DNA of 64,000 nucleotides, from assembly GCF_000337095.1 (NCBI RefSeq), contig NZ_AOIV01000008.1, positions 1 to 64,000 of the forward strand. Reading direction: 5' to 3'. Numbering within the stretch: the stretch's first letter is position 1; every line of letters starts with the position of its first letter. The notes below the pieces were generated by a model. It ran no database searches. It was not told where the DNA came from and saw nothing but the letters and a program-made list of their open reading frames with translations. Positions 20,658-58,082 of this stretch are shown in pieces. The DNA is from Halogeometricum pallidum JCM 14848. GTDB lineage: Archaea; Halobacteriota; Halobacteria; Halobacteriales; Haloferacaceae. Made by a program: the position numbers and the translations under genes.

Positions 20658-21158
20658 TCAGAGCGGCGTCCCCTCGCTGTTCGCTGCGTCGGTGGCTCGG
20701 TTGATGAGGCCCGCGACGGGGTCGGTGTACTCGTACCCGGGGATGATGCCCTGCACGTACGTTCCTTCCACGTAGTCGATGACGGCGCCCGCGTCCTCGA
20801 CGCCTCGCCGCTCGTTGATATCCGAGAGCGACGTCCTGACGACGGCCGACGTCCCCTCGCGGGTCACGTCCACGTCGAATTCGCGCTCCTTCTTCGTCAC
20901 GCCGCCCACGTCCTCGACGCGCAACTCGAACGTCTCGTACCAGCCGTCTTCGACGACGGGGGCCACCGCGTCGGCGGTGACGTCGGCGAGCATCGGCACG
21001 CGGACGGTCACGTCGAACGTGATTTCGCCGCCGTCTTCGCCGACGTCGACCCGGCCGTCGAACGCCGTCGCGGTCCACTCGTAGGTCGATCCGTCTCGCT
21101 TCTCGAAGGAGTCGTGGTCGCGGAGGGCGCGCCGCGCCCTGTCGGGTAGTTCGCTCAT
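20658..21158 (-). CDS. DUF5813-like haloarchaeal protein
   Basis: This 166-residue soluble, acidic protein reads MSELPDRARRALRDHDSFEK, then SYEWTATAFDGRVDV-like strands, ITFDVTVRVPMLADVTAD, DGWYETFELRVEDV and PGYEYTDPVAGLINRA. The pattern of strands plus terminal helix matches what I remember as the haloarchaeal DUF5813 family. No catalytic residues can be named. It is convergent with the trkA/RAM operon (6 bp between stops). Its promoter lies in the 420-bp gap that also carries the candidate ncRNA. Confidence 0.7.
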   Translation of the reverse strand: MSELPDRARRALRDHDSFEKRDGSTYEWTATAFDGRVDVGEDGGEITFDVTVRVPMLADVTADAVAPVVEDGWYETFELRVEDVGGVTKKEREFDVDVTREGTSAVVRTSLSDINERRGVEDAGAVIDYVEGTYVQGIIPGYEYTDPVAGLINRATDAANSEGTPL

Positions 21159-21345
21159 AGGACGGGAGAGGCGTTCACGGGACAAAAGCCCCTCGCGTCG
21201 GCCGTTCGGTCGGCGGCTACCGACTCGTCTGTGGCCCTCGCCGGCGCTTCCCCGGACGGCACCTCTCCCGTTCTCGATAGCGGGCACGTAGCCGGAGGAT
21301 TTGCGAGCGTGCGGCACGCTTAAGTGGTTGCCAGGCCTGGTTGCA

Positions 21346-21440
21346 AGTGACGCTTCGCTTTGGAGGGCCGAAGCGTCAGCGGGGACCAATTCAGGGCGGC
21401 AGCGTCCGTTCGGGCTGTTCCCGAACGGACGCTACCTTTT
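21346..21440 (+). ncRNA. Candidate structured small RNA with terminator hairpin
   Basis: GCTTAAGTG at 21319-21327 looks like a promoter TATA element. About 25 nt later a 10-bp perfect stem (TGACGCTTCG 21348-21357 with CGAAGCGTCA 21369-21378, 11-nt loop) begins. After a short linker comes a 14-bp perfect stem (21401-21414 with 21420-21433, loop CTGTT), followed by ACCTTTT. No ORF explains the stretch, and the second hairpin with its T-run looks like a terminator. The family is unknown; it does not resemble tRNA, SRP RNA, RNase P RNA or a C/D box RNA. Confidence 0.5.
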
Positions 21441-21576: not shown

Positions 21577-21762
21577 CTACAGGTACTCGCCGAGGGTGCC
21601 GCCGACGAGGACGCCCGCGGCGAGGATGGACCCGGCGCTCGCCGCGAGGTGGACGGGAACCGAAGAGAGGACGCCCAACACCGCGGCGCAGGCGAGACTG
21701 ACTCCCATCACCGCCAGGAGATAGTCGAAGCGCGTCGGCTCGTTGGCGGGCATTACCGACAT
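21577..21762 (-). CDS. Two-helix membrane protein, 61 aa
   Basis: This small protein begins MSVMPANEPTRFDYLLAVMG, followed by two hydrophobic segments (about residues 14-34 and 40-58) with a conserved-looking glycine-rich end, AAGVLVGGTLGEYL. It is convergent with the candidate ncRNA. The start region ACATGATGTAATGAGATGTAATTAG just upstream is AT-rich and could hold the promoter. Function unknown; the clean hydrophobic pattern and ATG start support a real gene. Confidence 0.6.
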   Translation of the reverse strand: MSVMPANEPTRFDYLLAVMGVSLACAAVLGVLSSVPVHLAASAGSILAAGVLVGGTLGEYL

Positions 21763-22797: not shown

Positions 22798-22882
22798 TGC
22801 GGGGGATGGGATTCGAACCCATGAACTCCTACGAGAGCGGATCTTAAGTCCGCCGCCTTTGGCCTGGCTCAGCCACCCCCGC
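22798..22882 (-). tRNA. tRNA-Leu (anticodon UAA)
   Basis: An 85-base class II tRNA on the minus strand. The acceptor stem GCGGGGG pairs with CCCCCGC, with discriminator A. The anticodon stem GCGGA/TCCGC holds the loop CTTAAGA (anticodon TAA in DNA). A long variable arm follows, and the T-arm is ATGGG-TTCGAAT-CCCAT. CCA is not encoded and no intron is seen. Upstream on the minus strand ACCATATTGG at about 22908-22917 is a plausible promoter element. The 3' end is duplicated at 22697-22717. Confidence 0.97.
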
Positions 22883-57907: not shown

Positions 57908-58082
57908 GGAGTCCCGACCTCGAAGTCACGGTTCGAGTACGCCTCCACAGAAAGTCGGCCTCGGCACTCATAGGGTTCGTCACCGTCGGGTGCCACCCCG
58001 ACTCGGAACGGTGCCGTCGTCATCGGCCGTGCGGCGATATCGGAGCCACCGGCAAGAGCGTTCCGAGAGACCGCGCCCGCGA

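Follow-up and report, generated by a model that had tools for sequence, protein, structure and literature searches.

A class-wide family of small RNAs in the Halobacteria, with a copy orthologous to Haloferax volcanii hts10 and a probable role in trans

The stretch of DNA analyzed here, which we call the window, comprises 64,000 nucleotides of contig NZ_AOIV01000008.1 of Halogeometricum pallidum JCM 14848 (contig C8 of our assembly G000), and is haloarchaeal DNA. Its plus strand carries a predicted small RNA (sRNA) within a gap of 418 bp, between the DUF5813 gene, whose interval ends at 21158, and a small open reading frame ending at 21577. A first-pass annotation based on the letters alone had reported a TATA-like sequence, a 10-bp hairpin, a 14-bp hairpin and a T-run within a gap of this size, and every one of these lies where it was reported. 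The features of the locus are as follows.

20658–21158, minus strand: DUF5813 gene, divergent neighbour (Pfam PF19130, E 6.7e-56; HVO_2213 orthologue by gene order)
21312–21316, plus strand: BRE-like element CGGCA (family consensus CGNYA), −37 to −33 from the G of GACGC
21319–21325, plus strand: TATA box CTTAAGT, inside GCTTAAGTG (TTTAAGT or CTTAAGT in the family), with TTAA at −29 to −26
21346–21440, plus strand: predicted small RNA of about 95 nt, a unit kept in 388 of 392 genomes of the class
21348–21378, plus strand: hairpin 1, with a 10-bp stem and the loop CTTTGGAGGGC (21358–21368) that contains the invariant UGGAGGGC
21379–21400, plus strand: single-stranded linker GCGGGGACCAATTCAGGGCGGC, 22 nt and G-rich; CAGCGGGGACC (from 21377) is nearly invariant and the remainder looser
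21401–21433, plus strand: hairpin 2, the terminator stem, 14 perfect base pairs; the pairing persists while the sequence differs between genera
21437–21440, plus strand: terminator T-run TTTT; at least three T in 118 of 131 distinct copies
21577–21762, minus strand: convergent putative membrane open reading frame of 61 amino acids, without a Pfam match

The start of the sRNA (21346–21348) is placed by its distance from the TATA box, and the 3′ end by the T-run. The arms of hairpin 1 form a perfect inverted repeat, TGACGCTTCG (21348–21357) with CGAAGCGTCA (21369–21378), and those of hairpin 2 are likewise a perfect repeat, AGCGTCCGTTCGGG (21401–21414) with CCCGAACGGACGCT (21420–21433). The folding z-score of the sRNA is −4.1 to −4.25, and none of 200 shuffled sequences was as stable. 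Other RNA genes lie elsewhere in the window: a tRNA-Leu(UAA) gene about 1.4 kb downstream of the sRNA (22798–22882, minus strand), and the C/D box guide RNA sR-tMet (57957–58028, minus strand; RF02163, 72.6 bits).

How widespread is the element? By BLAST it is present in 55 of 60 relatives, mostly as two copies each; the part conserved in these alignments is the first ∼55 nt, while the flanks and the terminator sequence differ. The first-pass annotation had proposed a search with Rfam and covariance models. Rfam 15 returned nothing above the gathering score (the best overlapping match is P17, at 13.7 bits against the 45 needed), whereas our own covariance model, R1, finds the sRNA in 388 of the 392 genomes of the class Halobacteria; the 243 genomes searched from the rest of the phylum gave no match. 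Two families, f9 and f11, account for the four class genomes lacking a match. Scanning named genomes for the pattern gave at least 118 stretches, and among the matches listed are Haloferax, Halorubrum, Haloarcula, Natrinema, Natrialba, Halococcus, Haloquadratum and many other genera. A search of viral contigs with the exact pattern gave nothing, and no phage carried the sRNA; divergent copies are present on two haloarchaeal plasmids. Four genomes (G304, G396, G025 and G104) have four to eight sRNA-like matches, some weak and divergent, suggesting that the RNA has been captured by mobile elements.

There are usually two copies of the sRNA in the family to which H. pallidum belongs, and one in other families. 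Copy A, that of the window, adjoins DUF5813 and occurs in its own family; DUF5813 is also the neighbour of the other A copies that have flanks. The second copy of the same genome is at G000:C3:155043 (locus L034). Copy B occurs in most families, with folD/DUF7117-like genes on one side and a PadR-type gene on the other, an order that is constant wherever the flanks suffice. This copy, beside a RosR-like PadR regulator, is the ancestral one. The PadR protein is related to Halobacterium RosR (PDB 6qfd, E 6e-24); we regard it as RosR-like from this similarity and do not equate it with RosR itself. At the B loci (L034:4346–4639 and others) the PadR gene follows copy B throughout the class and has a GACAnTAA motif before its start, a possible autoregulatory operator. 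The mobile-type copies have a neighbourhood of their own. At L244, L245, L246, L130, L310 (pHLAC01), L200 and L201, and in degenerate form at L217, the sRNA is divergent to the gene for a conserved protein of ∼325 amino acids (MPFSGIWHTILDE...), about 110–140 nt from its start. This protein has no Pfam family above the cut-off, and a TRAM-domain gene lies near the sRNA in L246, L310 and L130. The protein family is present in 163 of 292 genomes, and the sRNA accompanies only a sub-branch of at least 77% identity, plus one member at 48%.

The position of copy A allows it to be related to an RNA that has been studied. In the finished Haloferax genome G112 the genes run in the order CetZ1, epimerase, Tmk, E1 dehydrogenase, Lrp, TrkA, a 78-aa Lrp-like protein, DUF5813, the sRNA and a chemotaxis transducer. 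The CetZ1 of this genome is a full-length match to PDB 4b46, which we take to be H. volcanii CetZ1. In H. volcanii CetZ1 is HVO_2204 (PMC10927574), and HVO_2212 is 78 residues in length (PMC12850539). The order running from CetZ1 to the 78-aa HVO_2212 thus makes DUF5813 HVO_2213, and the sRNA HVO_2213s, or hts10. In both G112 and the window the sRNA lies between the orthologues of HVO_2213 and HVO_2214, as identified by gene order, and downstream of CetZ1 and HVO_2212. Gene order and literature together thus indicate strongly that the window copy is the orthologue of hts10. The deletion study gives hts10 as a transcript detected by high-throughput sequencing and as present in 18 other genomes (PMC3956466). 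The earlier description of the element as unannotated is right for Rfam, which has no such family, and needs amending for H. volcanii, where the orthologue had already been detected. There hts10 has the genomic place of the window sRNA, after HVO_2213, and differs in being given as a 161-nt interval, with no family description, against ∼95 nt for the window sRNA (PMC3956466). HVO_2908s, H3.2 and H225.2R are likewise intergenic sRNAs of H. volcanii that two papers report as conserved (PMC10927574, PMC3956466). The reported effects of deleting hts10 are mild only, a longer lag on acetate and small changes in yield (PMC3956466). At least two copies of the sRNA are present in all 15 Haloferax genomes searched, and the single deletion may have had mild effects because the second copy is redundant. 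Very probably the published mutant kept a working paralogue.

Well over 100 distinct copies, drawn from many genera, share this arrangement of promoter, hairpin, linker and terminator, with each part in the same position. Relative to GACGC the promoter elements are fixed across distinct copies, with CGNYA at −37 to −33 and TTTAA/TTAAG at −30 to −25. In the class A and B copies the C and G of the BRE-like element are conserved at 88–100% and its A at 95–100%, and the TTAA at −29 to −26 is conserved at 71–100% in both copy types. The family promoter agrees with the haloarchaeal BRE/TATA rule (PMC4983044). The downstream region folds with a median z-score of −4.2, and 93% of values are below −2; it was assessed by folding each sequence, as automatic consensus folding aligned hairpin 2 poorly. 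The fixed BRE/TATA and, judged by sequence, the persistent terminator pairing and the T-run argue for the first-pass proposal of an sRNA that has both a promoter and a terminator of its own.

Hairpin 1 and CAGCGGGGACC hardly vary among the chromosomal copies. For the large set of named genomes this invariance arises partly from the selection itself, some copies having been chosen with the core pattern; the BLAST and covariance-model searches are less biased. The 5′ side of the loop is CT in 58 copies, TC in 32 and CTT in 38, with an indel of 1 nt between the lengths. The plasmid-type copies have a hairpin 1 stem of CUCCG/CGGAG or CUCUG/CAGAG in place of the usual CUUCG/CGAAG, so that two pairs are altered on both sides (UA to CG, CG to UA), and they retain the loop UGGAGGGCC and the linker CAGCGGGGACC. 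The covariation is small (three cells), being matched by 5–16 of 500 shuffles and by no slid register. Compensatory changes, for which the first-pass annotation had suggested looking, are thus present in a few divergent plasmid-type copies and almost lacking in the chromosomal ones, because the sequence of the latter is nearly frozen. Since the stem covaries while loop and linker are kept, hairpin 1 is a genuine helix in the RNA, and it is the letters of the loop and linker that matter most. These are the most constrained parts of the sRNA.

We consider it probable that the element belongs to a class-wide sRNA family, of which the window holds the A paralogue and hts10 orthologue, and that it acts in trans through its loop and linker. 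The gene, the family and the orthology are either observed or strongly indicated; the trans mechanism is what we infer. A trans-acting regulatory RNA is the likeliest role. The conserved anatomy suggests that the sRNA would be transcribed from its own BRE/TATA promoter and would end at its own hairpin and T-run. Hairpin 1 would present UGGAGGGC in its loop, and the CAGCGGGGACC that follows would be single stranded. These two G-rich pieces, loop and linker, would dock a partner that is identical in all Halobacteria, while the terminator hairpin would only end and protect the RNA. If the docking is correct, converting UGGAGGGC of the loop to UCUCUCUC, or GCGGGGACC of the linker to GCCCCGACC, should abolish function, and stem swaps that preserve the pairing should not.

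What might the partner be? C-rich stretches of several mRNAs are our tentative choice, held at a little under an even chance and slightly favoured over a protein. The stem is nearly frozen along with the loop and linker, which exceeds what seed pairing with mRNA would require and would fit a protein partner. The sRNA might thus bind a dedicated conserved protein or RNP via the UGGAGGGC loop and GCGGGGA linker, acting by titration or as a scaffold, as CsrB/RsmZ or 6S RNA do; we regard this as a real, if less probable, possibility. It agrees with the near invariance of the whole 40-nt core, stem included, in chromosomal copies, and with the plasmid-type copies that alter the stem and retain loop and linker. 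Moreover, exact complements of the linker 12-mer in 40 genomes, examined at the loci of some of the hits, disclosed no recurrent gene; this mRNA search, confined to exact 12-mers, was below full sensitivity, which weakens the argument for a protein. CsrA is a bacterial protein. RNAs of the CsrB/RsmZ type present a GGA-containing sequence in a hairpin loop, and such hairpins are repeated in them, whereas the window sRNA has a single GGA loop and no Rfam match. The linker 12-mer matches that did recur lie in SRP RNA and carry the linker sequence itself, not its complement. A tandem repeat containing the linker complement lies at a contig end (G037:C14:16–113); in it GGTCCCCGCTGA occurs three times, at a spacing of 43 bp.

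A guide RNA, or one pairing with rRNA or tRNA (C/D, H/ACA or anti-16S), seems improbable. The GGAGG of the loop can pair with CCUCC at the 3′ end of 16S rRNA, over 5 bp only. Pairing of the loop, linker and core with 16S and 23S rRNA was no better than that of shuffled queries in four genomes (the rRNA sequences came from four other genomes, the 16S pattern being without a match in the H. pallidum assembly), and pairing of the sRNA with tRNA was likewise no better than for shuffled queries. The element contains neither the C box RTGATGA nor the D box CTGA, so that a C/D box sRNA is rejected, in agreement with the first reading of the locus; it contains no ACA and has no Rfam match, and an H/ACA sRNA is rejected also.

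It had also been noted that the element does not look like SRP RNA. Indeed RF01857 has no match in the window, the SRP RNA of this genome lies elsewhere, and neither S-domain helix 8 nor a match to RF01857 was found in the sRNA. The linker does share 10–12 nt with an Alu-side segment of haloarchaeal SRP RNA (AGCGGGGACC, up to UCAGCGGGGACC), and the sequence (UC)AGCGGGGACC recurs; outside this stretch the sRNA has no similarity to archaeal SRP RNA, no SRP fold and no Rfam match. The resemblance score was reached by 7 of 2000 dinucleotide shuffles, or ∼0.03 after allowing for the several RNAs compared. Where SRP RNA changes to GGGGGCC, as it does in many species, the sRNA keeps GGGGACC. We regard the similarity as a weak and unproven lead, suggestive at best. 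That a near-universal RNA copies the AGCGGGGACC strand (at the junction of helices 4 and 2 in the Alu-side domain), so competing with or modulating SRP or its Alu-side partner, is a long shot; were it true, the sRNA would be a near-universal haloarchaeal mimic of a piece of SRP, acting on SRP or on that partner.

It is most unlikely that the sRNA serves its neighbouring gene, PadR in the case of copy B, as a cis-acting leader or attenuator. The ancestral copy is upstream of PadR and co-directional with it in most B loci, but a terminator lies between them, and PadR has its own conserved promoter (CGATAtnTTTATT) immediately before its start, so copy B is likewise a separate unit. The loop and linker pair with PadR mRNA more weakly than shuffled queries do. 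Copy A has no co-directional gene; with a divergent gene upstream and a convergent open reading frame downstream, it cannot be a leader. Least credible of all is a leaderless micro-protein, encoded by a transcript that opens with GUG (VTLRFGGPKRQRGPIQGG...): many copies have GTG at the predicted start, and open reading frames cross the element, but the 1-nt difference in the loop breaks the frame while the nucleotides after the loop are identical, the start triplet varies (ATG, TTG, TCG, ACG, CTG, CCG) and the position of the stop is not shared, so that the peptide is rejected and the first-pass view that no reading frame explains the element is borne out.

Archaeal intergenic sRNAs, and the H. 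volcanii orthologue itself, were already known. The exact core sequences do not occur in the literature searched, and in the sources reached we found no description of the invariant loop and linker, of a frozen family spread through the class, or of the second Haloferax copy. The deletion study infers that haloarchaeal sRNA genes evolve fast, 22 of the 27 being restricted to H. volcanii (PMC3956466). Contrary to that picture, the core of this sRNA has scarcely changed in nearly all genomes of the class, a level of conservation usual for housekeeping RNAs, and yet it is absent from Rfam. The second Haloferax copy means that the published single deletion probably left the function in place, and therefore that a double deletion would make the role of the sRNA directly testable in a genetic model archaeon.
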